A DNA stretch of 35,167 bases from Bacteroidota bacterium (GTDB taxonomy: Bacteria; Bacteroidota; Ignavibacteria; Ignavibacteriales; Melioribacteraceae): the NCBI GenBank assembly GCA_018829545.1, contig JAHJTX010000102.1:1-35167 (forward strand). Reading direction: 5' to 3'. The position numbers and the translations under genes were made by a program. Below are positions 2,927 through 35,076 of the stretch, piece after piece. A model generated the notes under the pieces. It was not told where the DNA came from, did no database searches, and was given only the letters and a program-made list of their open reading frames with translations. Position 1 is the stretch's first letter. Each line of letters starts with the position of its first letter.

Positions 2927-4801
2927 TTATCTGCCAACCGATTTTTGCGGTTTTATCATATTTTCCGGCGCTAGTGCAGAATCAAGTTCCTCTTTCGACA
3001 TAAGATTTTTTTCTATTACCAATTCATATACGCCGCGGTTGCTTTCAAGCGCTTCTTTTGCCAATTGCGTGCTTACTTCATATCCAAGAATTGGATTCAA
3101 AGCAGTTACGAGTCCAATGCTGTTCTCAACATAAAAACGGCAAACTTTTTCGTTTGCTGTTATTCCTTCGATGCATTTGTATTTTAAGGTAGTCATTCCA
3201 TTTTTAAGCATTTCAATTGATTCAAAAATACTTTGAACGATAACGGGTTCCATCACATTCAATTCCAATTGCCCGGCTTCGGCGGCAAGAGTTACGGTTA
3301 GGTCGTTGCCGATTACTTTGAACGCAATTTGATTTAGAACTTCAGGAATTACCGGATTGACTTTGCCCGGCATAATGGAAGAACCTGGCTGCATAGGAGG
3401 AAGATTAATTTCGTTAAAACCAGCTCGCGGACCGGAAGAGAGCAATCGTAAATCATTGCAGATTTTAGAAAGCTTAACCGCAAGCCTTTTAACAGCCGAT
3501 GAATACATAACGAAAGCTCCGGTATCCTGAGTGGCTTCAATTAAATTTGCCGCAAGTTTAATATCCAGATTAGTTATGTCGCGCAAGTGCTTAATTACTT
3601 TTTCGCTGTATTCGGGGTCGGAGTTTATCCCCGTGCCAATCGCTGTTGCGCCCAAATTGACTTCAAGAAAAAGATTGGAATTTTGCTCGAGTCTTTCAAT
3701 CTCTTCACCAAGAGTTACAGCATAAGCCTCGAATGACTGACCAAGTGTCATCGGAACGGCATCCTGCAATTGTGTTCGTCCCATTTTAATCACGTTTTTA
3801 AATTCACCGGCTTTTTTTCGGAAGGATTTAATTAATTCCCATAACACAACTACTAAAGTTTTATTAGAATTTATTAGCGCAATTTTAATTGAGGTTGGGT
3901 ACGCATCGTTTGTTGATTGAGATAAATTAACATGATTGTTGGGATGGCAATATTTATACTCACCCTTTTCATGTCCAAGAATTTCTAACGCACGATTTGA
4001 GATAACTTCATTTGCATTCATATTTGTGCTGGTGCCGGCGCCGCCTTGAATCATGTCCACAACAAAATGCGTGTGATATTTGCCATTGATTATTTCCGAA
4101 CACGCTTGAATAATTGCCTCTGCTATCGGTTTTGAAAGTAAGCCCAATTCAAAGTTTGCCTGTGCGGCGGCTTGTTTAACCATTGCCAAAGCTTGAACTA
4201 GAATCGGATAAAAGCTGAGAGTAACCCCGGAGATATTAAAATTTTCTATTGCGCGGAGTGTCTGCACGCCGTAAAAATATTCGTGCGGAACTTGTCTGTC
4301 GCCAAGTAAATCGTGTTCCTTTCGAGTTCTGCCGGATTCATATTGCGCGCCTGCATTAACTACGCGCATATTTGTGTTTCTTATTCTACGAGAAATAATT
4401 CGCGCAACGTATGAAAAAATCTTTACCGCAAGTTCGCCGTTGTTCTTAAATATCGCAAGTAATTTGTCCTTTTCAATTCTTAAAATAGTAGTATCCGAAA
4501 TTGCCCGCGCGGACGTTGAATGAGGTGAATCATCAACTAAAGAACCTTCGCCAAGAAAATCATATTTGCCGAAAACAGCTAAACGTTTCTCCTCACCAAA
4601 GGAAGTAGATTTATAAAGTTCAACTTTACCTTCAAAGATTATCCAGATATACTTTCTCGGATTATTTTCTATGAATAATTTATAAGATGACTTATAATTT
4701 TTTGTCTGCGTTACATTTGCAAGAAGAATTAGCTCTTCATTGGATAACGAACTAAAAATATCTGTGCTCTTGTAAAAATTGATTATGCCATTGATTTCCA
4801 T
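2927..4801 (-). CDS. aspA: Aspartate ammonia-lyase with N-terminal cNMP-binding domain
   Basis: A 624-residue fusion. Residues 1 to about 135 form a cyclic-nucleotide-binding beta-roll (WIIFEGKVELYK, FGKYDFLGEGSL). From about 157 the chain is a full aspartase of the fumarase/aspartase superfamily, starting RKEHDLLGDRQVPHEYFYG, with GGAGTSTNMNANEV (253-266), NLSQSTNDAYPTS (292-304), and the signature GSSIMPGKVNP (473-483) that carries the catalytic loop. The enzyme would reversibly deaminate aspartate to fumarate and ammonia. Ordinary aspartases are about 470 residues and lack the sensor domain. The usual phosphate-binding arginine of cAMP-type pockets is not seen in the segment after GEGSL (DDSPHSTSARA), so the ligand may differ or be absent. 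ATG at 4801 with GGAGA upstream. Second-last gene of the 7176-2426 run. Confidence 0.9.
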   Translation of the reverse strand: MEINGIINFYKSTDIFSSLSNEELILLANVTQTKNYKSSYKLFIENNPRKYIWIIFEGKVELYKSTSFGEEKRLAVFGKYDFLGEGSLVDDSPHSTSARAISDTTILRIEKDKLLAIFKNNGELAVKIFSYVARIISRRIRNTNMRVVNAGAQYESGRTRKEHDLLGDRQVPHEYFYGVQTLRAIENFNISGVTLSFYPILVQALAMVKQAAAQANFELGLLSKPIAEAIIQACSEIINGKYHTHFVVDMIQGGAGTSTNMNANEVISNRALEILGHEKGEYKYCHPNNHVNLSQSTNDAYPTSIKIALINSNKTLVVVLWELIKSFRKKAGEFKNVIKMGRTQLQDAVPMTLGQSFEAYAVTLGEEIERLEQNSNLFLEVNLGATAIGTGINSDPEYSEKVIKHLRDITNLDIKLAANLIEATQDTGAFVMYSSAVKRLAVKLSKICNDLRLLSSGPRAGFNEINLPPMQPGSSIMPGKVNPVIPEVLNQIAFKVIGNDLTVTLAAEAGQLELNVMEPVIVQSIFESIEMLKNGMTTLKYKCIEGITANEKVCRFYVENSIGLVTALNPILGYEVSTQLAKEALESNRGVYELVIEKNLMSKEELDSALAPENMIKPQKSVGR

Positions 4802-16108: not shown

Positions 16109-17101
16109 TTATGCACTATCACAAATTTCTAATAGAGGAGAATTCTGTTTCGATTTACCGTTTCCATTGAGAACAAACTCAAAATGTTTAAGAATTTTTT
16201 TCTTATCAATAAATTCAATCTGAGTATGATCAATATCACGATTGTCATTAGGAAGAGAATAAAATTTAGATAAACCATCCCAATCAATATTTCGTAATGA
16301 AACTATATTATTTAAAAAAAAGCTGACCCAATATTCTCCGATTTTTGAAATTGGTTTTTCATAAAGGAGTTTATTTTTTGCATTGGAAACATAATTGGGA
16401 TCTATTTCGAATCCTATATAATTTCTTCCCAATCTTTTGGCTGCAATTGCTGTTGTCCCGGTACCCATAAATGGGTCAAGAATAATATCTGATTCATCCG
16501 TACTCATCAAAATTAAGCGCTCTAAAAGATGAATAGGTAACTGACAAGGGTGTTCGTCCCGATATTTATTATGTTTTATTCTATGTATATCAGCCCAAAC
16601 ATCAGATACGAGCGGACCAAATGGGTGAAGTAATTGTTTTTTACCGCCATAATCTTTTAGAAGGTAACCACTTTTCCGACTGCGTTTATGGGGGTATCTT
16701 AATTCATAAAACTTCGTCTGATTTATATCTTTCACATAATACAAAATCCCATAGTGAGAAGGTTGTAAAGATTTTCCCATTGGAGCGGTTGGTGCATCCC
16801 AAGAAATCCAGTGTCTAAAAGTTGAATATTTATTTAAAATGGAAGAATAATAGGTTAGCCATTTAGGAATATTATGGATGAATATAGAACCAGATGGCTT
16901 AGTCACCCTAACCATTTCGCTGATCCATTCTTCACACCAATCAACGTATTCTTGCATTTCTAATTTATCATAATACGAACTATATTTTTTTTTGAGGTTA
17001 AAGGGAGGATCCGCAAATGTAACATCAATAGAATTAGCAGGTATTTTGTTTAACAATTCAATTGAATCGCCGGCAATTATTTTATTAATAAATTCTTTCA
17101 T
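16109..17101 (-). CDS. Beta-class DNA methyltransferase
   Basis: A 330-residue site-specific DNA methyltransferase acting on an exocyclic amine (N6-adenine or N4-cytosine). The catalytic motif IV DPPF lies at 31-34, before motif X (HPCQLPIHLLERLI, 184-197) and the AdoMet motif I (ILDPFMGTGTT, 207-217, then FEIDPNY). This order defines the beta class. DPPF, not SPP, favours N6-adenine. A roughly 80-residue C-terminal extension has no recognised motif and may take part in DNA recognition. No restriction endonuclease is adjacent, so it is either solitary or works with the 66-residue protein encoded 2 bases upstream. The intergenic palindromes near 17400-17520 and its isolation fit horizontal acquisition. 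Target sequence unknown. Confidence 0.9.
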   Translation of the reverse strand: MKEFINKIIAGDSIELLNKIPANSIDVTFADPPFNLKKKYSSYYDKLEMQEYVDWCEEWISEMVRVTKPSGSIFIHNIPKWLTYYSSILNKYSTFRHWISWDAPTAPMGKSLQPSHYGILYYVKDINQTKFYELRYPHKRSRKSGYLLKDYGGKKQLLHPFGPLVSDVWADIHRIKHNKYRDEHPCQLPIHLLERLILMSTDESDIILDPFMGTGTTAIAAKRLGRNYIGFEIDPNYVSNAKNKLLYEKPISKIGEYWVSFFLNNIVSLRNIDWDGLSKFYSLPNDNRDIDHTQIEFIDKKKILKHFEFVLNGNGKSKQNSPLLEICDSA

Positions 17102-32658: not shown

Positions 32659-33468
32659 ATGAAAGGTGGGCAGTTTGGTAAAATCGGTGAAAACATGGTT
32701 GCCTTTGAACTATCTAAAAGAGGATGGATAGTTTTTTTACCGCCATATGATGAACGCATTGATATATTGGCAATGAAATTCATTTGTTCTACGTGCAATT
32801 CTCTCTGGAATACGACGCATAATCTCTTCTGCGCGAATTCGCAATGTGAAAATCATCAGGAAATTGCAAAAACGAGAATTAAAAAATCGAAAAAATGTAC
32901 TAAATGTAATTGTACTTTTTCCAGACAATCAGTTCCGTCACAGTCTTCAATTTGTCCCACATGCAATACCAATTCTCTTGAAGAAATTGCTCTTTGTAAT
33001 ATTTGTGAGAGTGAGATTGATGTTAAGCAAAGGAATTGTACAACTGTAGGCTGTCAAAGCACAAATTATCGGATCGTTTTTCGGTCAATACAAGTGAAAT
33101 CAACACACTTTGTGGATAATGGACAAAATTTAGGATTTAATTTCAAGTATCAAGATTTGCTCGATGACGACAGGCACTTCTTTATTGTTTATTTAAGAGA
33201 TATTAAAAATTACGATGAGAAACATCATTTTTGGGTGATGAACAAAAATGATTTTATTTCCATTAAAAACATTGATACGGTTTCGTTTAAAATATACCAA
33301 AATGACCGAGGACATTATAACCCCGATGATCTTAAAAACTTTCATTATGATTCGAGTATGACATTAAGAATAAATCATAAATTAGAAACATCTACTGATC
33401 CACACAGGATTTCAATTTATAGGATATTGTTAAAAAAATACGATACATTCTTAAAACTGGATGAGTGA
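32659..33468 (+). CDS. Putative PD-(D/E)XK endonuclease with three inserted zinc-binding units
   Basis: A 269-residue protein. Residues 1-40 (FGKIGENMVAFELSKRGW, then DERIDILAM) resemble the first half of a PD-(D/E)XK nuclease core, with E11 and D35. RSIQVKS (142-148) supplies a QxK third motif (Q145, K147). Between them lie twelve cysteines in three four-Cys sets: C43/46/58/63, C80/83/99/102 and C113/116/127/132, a layout typical of zinc ribbons. The C-terminal 110 residues are unassigned. The ATG at 32659 follows GAGGG. An upstream in-frame TTG (32554) would add residues with no domain. It converges with a DNA methyltransferase gene and their stop codons abut, which suggests a restriction endonuclease. 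The nuclease call is inference from motifs. Confidence 0.7.
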   Translation: MKGGQFGKIGENMVAFELSKRGWIVFLPPYDERIDILAMKFICSTCNSLWNTTHNLFCANSQCENHQEIAKTRIKKSKKCTKCNCTFSRQSVPSQSSICPTCNTNSLEEIALCNICESEIDVKQRNCTTVGCQSTNYRIVFRSIQVKSTHFVDNGQNLGFNFKYQDLLDDDRHFFIVYLRDIKNYDEKHHFWVMNKNDFISIKNIDTVSFKIYQNDRGHYNPDDLKNFHYDSSMTLRINHKLETSTDPHRISIYRILLKKYDTFLKLDE

Positions 33469-34917
33469 TTATCTCACATCTATTTCTTTGAAATGATCAC
33501 CATTGAATGAATCAATTATACGATTTATTATCGCATTTCGGTATAGCTCCTTATTCAGTTCCATTCCGATTCCATTCCTATTTAATCTTTTTGCGACAAT
33601 TGGAGTTGTAAAACTTCCGGCAAATGGGTCCAACACATTCTCGTTGATAAAAGAGAAATACTTTATCGCCATCGCTGGAATATCTTCAGGGAATGGCGCT
33701 GAGTGGCCCAATATATTTTCACCCTTACTATTAATTTTAATTACGGGATTTATTTTTACAATATCTTTTCGCCACTTGCTGATAGTAAATTTATCAATAA
33801 TATTCTCCGGATCGTTATTGTGATAATATTGCATAGTATTTGCGCGTAAAGAAAATCGTTTTCCTCTATTGTTTGCGCTTCTTACAAAGCACTTTCCATT
33901 TTTGCATTCCCAGCTTTGAACGCCGATTTCAGATTGTGTATTTCCATTAACATTTAATGAACCGCACACAGGACATGGAATTTTTGTTGTATCTAGGCGG
34001 TGCTTATGAAAGATTAGTATATGCTCATAAGCATTGAATGGATATTGATAAAAAGGGTAATAATTTCCATTGTTCATATGTCTTTTGCTTTCAACTTCTC
34101 CTTTATCCCAGATTATATCATCAACGAACTCAAATCCTTCTTCTTCAAAAATTTTAATAAAATAGGCGCCTAATGGAAGCCTCTTCTTTCCCCATACAGA
34201 TTTTGTTACCAAATTATCATTATCGAATATATCACCAACATTCCATATCCATGCACGATGGTTATCCAAAACTCGGAGTGATTCTCTAATGATCTTGCGC
34301 ATATCCTCTAAATAAAGGTTGATATTTTCCCATTGGGAGTATGCCCGAGCATTGTAATAAGGCGGTGACGTAATCATGAGTTGAATTGATTCAGATTTAA
34401 GTTGTTTTAAAGCTTTGTATGAATCACCCCATAATACTTTAATATCGTCATTCCTGCCGTCAACTACTGCTTGTAAATCTTGATTATATTCCTTTGGTAA
34501 GGTTTCTTGCTGAAAGTTATCTTTTAATAATCCTAAATAAGTTTTACTGAAATGAGTCACATAATCTTGATTACTAAAAGAATTGGTACTGATTTCCTTT
34601 ATTCTATTTATCAGTAAGGAATGCTGAGAAGGATCTAAATACTTTGTTAGATAAGTCTTATTTTTTTCAAGCAGATAATCAAAGTCAATATCGTAATTAT
34701 TAAAAATTTGTTCTGTTATTGGCTTCTCTGCAATAATTGGAGAATGGTAAAGAGCTAAAGTTTCTTTTGCGATGTACTTTTCAACATCACTTATTTTGTA
34801 TCGGTTTGATTTTCCTACTTTTAGAGAAGGTAGACCTTCTTGTTTCATACGCCATAATGTTGAGCGAGAGATATCTAAAATTTGTAAAACATCTTTTTCT
34901 TTCATTAATTTTTCCAT
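33469..34917 (-). CDS. DNA methyltransferase with N-terminal helix-turn-helix and zinc-binding insertion
   Basis: A 482-residue protein. Residues 5-50 form an excisionase/MerR-type helix-turn-helix (VLQILDISRSTLWRMKQEGL, then VGKSNRYKISDVEKYI). The methyltransferase domain has motif IV TSPPYY (183-188) before the AdoMet motif LDPFAGSFTT (429-438), the beta-class order. TSPPY favours N4-cytosine, though N6-adenine is not excluded. Between them C315/C318 and C338/C343 look like a zinc-binding insertion. The linker 50-160 is unassigned. ATG 34917 is chosen. ATG 34905 four codons further is possible, and a longer in-frame extension to 34992 has no domain. Likely partner of the convergent nuclease candidate. 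Confidence 0.87.
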   Translation of the reverse strand: MEKLMKEKDVLQILDISRSTLWRMKQEGLPSLKVGKSNRYKISDVEKYIAKETLALYHSPIIAEKPITEQIFNNYDIDFDYLLEKNKTYLTKYLDPSQHSLLINRIKEISTNSFSNQDYVTHFSKTYLGLLKDNFQQETLPKEYNQDLQAVVDGRNDDIKVLWGDSYKALKQLKSESIQLMITSPPYYNARAYSQWENINLYLEDMRKIIRESLRVLDNHRAWIWNVGDIFDNDNLVTKSVWGKKRLPLGAYFIKIFEEEGFEFVDDIIWDKGEVESKRHMNNGNYYPFYQYPFNAYEHILIFHKHRLDTTKIPCPVCGSLNVNGNTQSEIGVQSWECKNGKCFVRSANNRGKRFSLRANTMQYYHNNDPENIIDKFTISKWRKDIVKINPVIKINSKGENILGHSAPFPEDIPAMAIKYFSFINENVLDPFAGSFTTPIVAKRLNRNGIGMELNKELYRNAIINRIIDSFNGDHFKEIDVR

Positions 34918-34930
34918 AAACACCCACACT

Positions 34931-34950
34931 ATTTGAAACAATTTGAAACA
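34931..34950. repeat. Perfect tandem decamer upstream of the HTH-methyltransferase
   Basis: ATTTGAAACA occurs twice head to tail, ending 14 bases before the methyltransferase start codon. On the minus strand it abuts TATATTTG (34956-34949), which fits a -7 promoter element. It is a plausible operator for the encoded helix-turn-helix domain. Confidence 0.55.
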
Positions 34951-35076
34951 AATATAATCATATAGAAAATCAAATAAAAATAGTTTATTCAAAATATAAT
35001 TTTGGCAATCATAATTTCACTTAATTGACTTAGTACATATTTTCATAAATATTGTGACTTAACATTTTTGTAATTA

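Follow-up and report, generated by a model that had tools for sequence, protein, structure and literature searches.

Metal sites formed by four cysteines have been described in several restriction enzymes, including DpnI, which has a PD-(D/E)XK active site and binds zinc, BslI, which also binds zinc, and NotI, which binds iron; Vsr, the fold of which is PD-(D/E)XK-like, likewise binds zinc through Cys (PMC4081073), and in Vsr an FxH motif replaces (D/E)XK (PMC1189080). Given these precedents, zinc in such an enzyme is not new. The small endonucleases of PDDEXK_5 (PF11645) and phrog_5018 comprise a helix with E, a strand with D, a strand with Q-V-K, and then a hydrophobic strand, and in them D and QVK are not separated by a Cys insert. 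Among methylases, the N-terminal region of M.SsoII regulates transcription (PMC3978073).

The window, i.e., the whole stretch of 35,167 nucleotides of DNA that was analysed, contains a nuclease-like gene and a DNA methyltransferase (MTase) gene (Table 1). The putative nuclease shows the above elements of PDDEXK_5 and phrog_5018 in register, although it differs from these small endonucleases in bearing a Cys insert between D and QVK. It resembles DpnI in the presence of Cys4 motifs in a restriction enzyme with a PD-(D/E)XK site, the zinc of the window enzyme being predicted, whereas it differs from DpnI, BslI, and NotI in that three units separate its putative second catalytic residue from the third. 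It also resembles Vsr in being PD-(D/E)XK-like with a predicted Cys-bound zinc, although, unlike the FxH of Vsr, QVK is invariant in its family. No description of three Cys units inside a catalytic hairpin was found in the open-access literature, REBASE and subscription papers being outside the scope. On the evidence of sequence, the pair is very probably a type II restriction-modification (anti-phage) system. The previous sequence-only reading had proposed an undescribed system: its unusual nuclease architecture was upheld, whereas the layout proved to be that of ordinary type II restriction-modification. The kind of system is thus ordinary, and the unusual part is the layout of the nuclease, in which Cys units interrupt the active site.

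Table 1. Features of the gene pair, with positions in the window
Feature	Position	Strand	Basis
Putative restriction endonuclease (269 aa) with three four-Cys units interrupting its PD-(D/E)XK core	32659..33468	+	ORF, homologue alignment, and hhalign
N-terminal half of putative catalytic core, residues 1-42	32659..32784	+	phrog_5018 match; hhalign to PD-(D/E)XK relatives
E11	32689-32691	+	Within N-terminal core half
D35	32761-32763	+	Within N-terminal core half
Insert with three four-Cys units	32785..33054	+	12 Cys kept in all five homologous proteins
Cys unit 1, C43/46/58/63	32785-32847	+	Conserved Cys
Cys unit 2, C80/83/99/102	32896-32964	+	Conserved Cys
Cys unit 3, C113/116/127/132	32995-33054	+	Conserved Cys
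Q145-V-K147, putative third catalytic motif, strand after insert	33091..33099	+	Invariant; aligned with QVK of PD-(D/E)XK relatives
Beta-class MTase, 482 aa, convergent with nuclease	33469..34917 (start 34917)	-	Pfam N6_N4_Mtase 1.4e-32
MTase motif I, DPFAGS, residues 430-435	33613..33630	-	Sequence and MTase alignment
Four-Cys ribbon of MTase, C315/318/338/343	33889..33975	-	All four Cys kept in six MTases, phage enzymes among them
MTase motif IV, TSPPY, residues 183-187	34357..34371	-	Sequence and MTase alignment
N-terminal HTH_17 (excisionase-like) of MTase, residues 5-51	34765..34905	-	Pfam HTH_17 1e-6
21-bp tandem repeat TTTGTTTCAAATTGTTTCAAA, probable MTase operator	34932..34952	-	Exact in L002, same place

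Putative nuclease core and its cysteine insert

The nuclease family is known from five sequences: that of the window, those of L002 (70%, a Saprospiraceae MAG), L003 (62%, a MAG), and L004 (61%, a MAG), obtained by a scan of species genomes, and that of the distant relative L014 (35% identical), which turned up when the small phylum that includes L003 was searched with a profile. The family is rare, as the 395 genomes of the window's phylum yielded the window's own hit and two chance-level matches, and no homologue was found among 145 nearer relatives of the window's genome or in viral contigs, phages, and plasmids. Among weaker genome matches, L005 was judged by eye to be an unrelated penicillin-acylase-like frame, L015 and L016 are transposase zinc ribbons, and L006 and L018, both short, were kept outside the homologue set. 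Pfam and PADLOC have no model for the nuclease, and NCBIfam gave one weak irrelevant match; because no model there describes the nuclease, annotation pipelines relying on Pfam, NCBIfam, and PADLOC will miss the restriction half of such systems.

The order E, D, (D/E/Q)-x-K of the PD-(D/E)XK superfamily is followed by E11, D35, Q145, and K147, which are present at the residues named in the sequence-only reading. Conservation of these residues was a check suggested by that reading, and alignment of the five proteins showed all four to be invariant down to 35% identity. The three four-Cys units that it had located between D35 and Q145 were likewise found, with four Cys per unit in each of the five proteins, although the spacing drifts in L014; C85 of the window protein is one extra Cys and is not conserved. 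Cysteine is strongly enriched here, with 13 in residues 41-140 compared with a Cys content of 0.7% in 12 other proteins of the window (P ~4e-13, binomial), and zinc is presumably bound by these units. The gene is under purifying selection (dN 0.034 and dS 0.48 between L003 and L004). The 269-aa protein would act as a restriction endonuclease with a PDDEXK_5-like fold and would cleave DNA: the metal-binding catalytic residues would be E11 on the first helix, D35 on the second strand, and Q145-x-K147 on the third strand, and the hairpin formed by these two strands would be opened to accommodate ~95 residues that make up the three presumed zinc units.

The PD-(D/E)XK core proposed from sequence alone gained support from three profile methods, i.e., phrog_5018, PDDEXK_5 with the insert excised, and hhalign. 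The intact N-terminus is matched by phrog_5018 (residues 5-39, 3.5e-6), members of which in the sampled genomes include PDDEXK_5 hits. Pfam PDDEXK_5 gave no match to the intact nuclease; with the Cys insert cut out, E-values of 2e-4 (window), 0.005 (L002), 0.0023 (L004), and 0.0073 (L014) were obtained, all below the gathering cut-off (best score 21.8 bits versus 26.1 bits), and by these scores the nuclease is "PDDEXK_5-like" and not a member of PF11645. Two control excisions at wrong places gave no PDDEXK_5 match. The match was lost when the window core was spliced three residues longer, so the excision test is fragile, and given this sensitivity the match was not relied on by itself. Alignment of the excised cores by hhalign with nine PD-(D/E)XK relatives, which had been gathered with models touched by the window protein itself so that some dependence between the two sets remains, gave 96.8% (E 2.6e-10) with E11, D35, and QVK in register, versus at most 2.1% for 20 column shuffles and 6.8% for a reversed profile. 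The alignment of the intact nuclease with these relatives (93.2%) covers residues 2-42 only and stops at residue 39-42, where the insert begins.

AF2 models were built from four and five homologues (pLDDT 61, pTM 0.51 and pLDDT 56, pTM 0.30, respectively), and their quality was too low for the fold to be judged. Model 2, of low confidence over the core, places a helix at residues 7-20, strands at 24-26 and 33-43, the insert, a strand at 137-147, a helix at 164-168, and strands at 174-183 and 186-195, and the order of elements in this low-pLDDT model is that expected for PD-(D/E)XK. With these low-confidence models, the best hit of Foldseek was an unrelated protein (E 0.15), and that of VIA-align was limited to the C-terminal helices (Z 5.1). 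PDB sequence searches with the intact nuclease and the excised core yielded no related chain.

Two roles of the Cys units have to be weighed. In the first, the presumed zinc units would read the target or clamp it; its boldest form, appreciably less likely than not, is that these PD-(D/E)XK restriction enzymes constitute a new family with an array of three zinc units in the catalytic hairpin. This array would read the target, recognition being grafted directly into the active site, and the partner would be a beta-class methylase that represses itself via its HTH on a tandem operator. The other, at somewhat less than an even chance, retains the type II pair but regards the Cys units as structural or as a means of dimer formation, with the target being read elsewhere, e.g., by residues 160-269. 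The high conservation of residues 155-235 among the window, L002, L003, and L004 is in line with this latter role, as is the finding that Cys4 zinc units in HNH restriction enzymes are structural and not recognition elements (PMC4081073), although three complete units would be costly if stability were their sole purpose. The greatest divergence of the insert is seen in the L014 nuclease, a product of the exchange described below, but the rest of that protein is also the most divergent, and the two roles are not separated by this comparison. If the zinc array does read DNA, as in the proposed family, its recognition module would be built into the active-site hairpin rather than fused at one end, which would bear on the evolution of restriction specificity and on engineered nucleases.

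The methyltransferase and the repeat before its gene

Because TSPPY (residue 183) precedes DPFAGS (residue 430), the MTase belongs to the beta class, and this motif order, together with the N6_N4_Mtase match (113.8 bits versus a cut-off of 26.7; Pfam, 1.4e-32), bears out the class given in the sequence-only reading. Both catalytic motifs are intact, and the gene is under purifying selection (dN 0.057 and dS 0.39 between L004 and L014). TSPPY is found in N4-cytosine and N6-adenine enzymes, and either base may be the one modified. The enzyme would mark in host DNA the same site that the nuclease recognizes. Its C-terminal motif region aligns with PDB 2zie, a putative modification methylase of the beta class (E 2.9e-14); the C-terminal part alone aligns, and the HTH and Cys ribbon are extras of the window MTase. 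In a comparison of the Cys units of the nuclease with this ribbon, unit 3 gave 81% and units 1 and 2 gave ~35%, and no kinship is claimed because short Cys motifs match easily. The HTH_17 domain is present in the window and L002, absent in L004 and L014, and degenerate in L007, a phage copy of the MTase.

Although the leader sequences of the window and L002 MTase genes, the two with an HTH, have otherwise diverged, the repeat TTTGTTTCAAATTGTTTCAAA is exact in both, lying 14 bp upstream of the start codon in the window and 11 bp upstream in L002; by comparison, 100 shuffled leader pairs had at most 15 bp in common. The repeat precedes the HTH-bearing MTase genes only and is absent before those lacking the HTH. 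With as many as two mismatches allowed, a single match was obtained in each of the genomes of the window and L002 and none in those of L003, L004, and L014. A backward control pattern also had one match in the window's own genome, and a lone near-match would therefore mean little; the real repeat is exact and occupies the same place in both genomes. In both, it overlaps a TAnnTTTG box, the -7 element of Bacteroidota. The repeat, known from two genomes, is probably an autoregulatory operator of the MTase gene, and the simplest reading is self-repression: the HTH of the methylase would bind the repeat just upstream of its own start and repress its own gene. The window MTase would thereby resemble M.SsoII in having an N-terminal domain of DNA-binding type (HTH_17, 1e-6) with a predicted regulatory role, although M.SsoII is a C5 methylase, whereas the window enzyme is of the beta class and combines an excisionase-like HTH_17 with a tandem repeat, a likeness predicted from sequence.

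Linkage of the two genes

The stop codons of the two genes abut tail-to-tail (TGA 33466-33468 and TAA 33469-33471), exactly where the sequence-only reading had placed this convergent pair, and the start positions 32659 and 34917 match those of the homologues. In the window, L002, L004, and L014, the nuclease converges on a complete MTase, always of one and the same family, and the L003 contig ends 80 bp past the nuclease, inside the MTase, these bases coding for the C-terminal end of the same enzyme. Separate endonuclease and methyltransferase genes thus lie side by side in 5/5 loci, which is the type II layout and supports the restriction-modification pair read from the sequence. The five loci span at least two phyla, with identical orientation and near-zero spacing, and all bacterial MTase copies that were found are adjoined by the nuclease. 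No helicase or specificity subunit adjoins the pair within the window, the contig of which stops 250 bp beyond the MTase start.

Nuclease and MTase have diverged equally among the window, L002, and L004 (~70 and 62%). By contrast, the MTases of L004 and L014 are 92% identical over 418 residues whereas their nucleases are 29% identical, and DNA similarity breaks off on the nuclease side of the MTase gene, ~70 bp inside its 3′ end; from these observations, the sequences indicate that one nuclease of this family has been replaced by another beside the same methylase. Such a swap would be difficult to account for if nuclease and MTase were functionally unconnected. As the near-identity of the two MTases extends across the recognition region, a single mark is predicted to block both nucleases, and the L004/L014 pair is thus a natural experiment, in which comparison of the nucleases would show which residues matter.

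That the two genes are independent cargo of mobile elements, i.e., a resolvase-like or other DNA-processing nuclease beside a solitary methylase, is improbable. The loci do adjoin integrases, Holliday junction resolvases are members of the PD-(D/E)XK superfamily (PMC1189080), and the MTase stands alone in phages, no nuclease being found beside the viral copies at L007 (54%) or in a Staphylococcus phage (47%); however, linkage in all five loci across at least two phyla with the same orientation and spacing, the equal divergence, and the replacement of a nuclease by another of its family beside an almost identical MTase argue against independence and for the type II pair. Vsr accompanies C5 methylases, to which the window MTase does not belong. 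A modification-dependent nuclease or a Vsr-like repair enzyme working with the methylase is least likely of all and very improbable, as DpnI and Vsr, PD-(D/E)XK-like with Cys-bound zinc, do act on methylated or deaminated sites (PMC4081073), but cutting the mark of its own neighbor, the MTase motifs of which are intact, would kill the host, and the FxH that Vsr has for (D/E)XK (PMC1189080) contrasts with the invariant QVK.

Genomic surroundings and other genes

Reverse transcriptase and TIR genes are clustered with the pair of L003; a TIR gene and an integrase are near the pair in L004, and an integrase is near that in L014. These surroundings, together with the G+C of the window pair (0.32-0.33 versus 0.36 window-wide), fit a mobile defence module, and the type II pair would thus move with mobile DNA. 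In L003, an RVT_1 protein (502 aa) and then a TIR protein are encoded at L003:3692-5972, directly upstream of the nuclease, forming a candidate defence cluster, and a TIR gene lies upstream of the nuclease in L004 as well.

Stand-alone methylases, which shield the phage's own DNA, are common in phages. L007:5001-6419 and L010:3974-4903 encode phage MTases of the present family, with the Cys ribbon and no adjoining nuclease, and such enzymes possibly protect phage DNA against this kind of system.

Two further genes of the window were observed. A second N6_N4 DNA methyltransferase (16109-17101, minus strand, 330 aa, Pfam 1.2e-51) lies between aminotransferase and glycosyltransferase genes with no evident adjoining nuclease and is a candidate solitary methylase. 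Furthermore, a lyase/fumarase-like protein is encoded at 2927-4801 (minus strand) with an N-terminal cyclic-nucleotide-binding domain (cNMP_binding, Lyase_1, and FumaraseC_C), which looks uncommon as a fusion.
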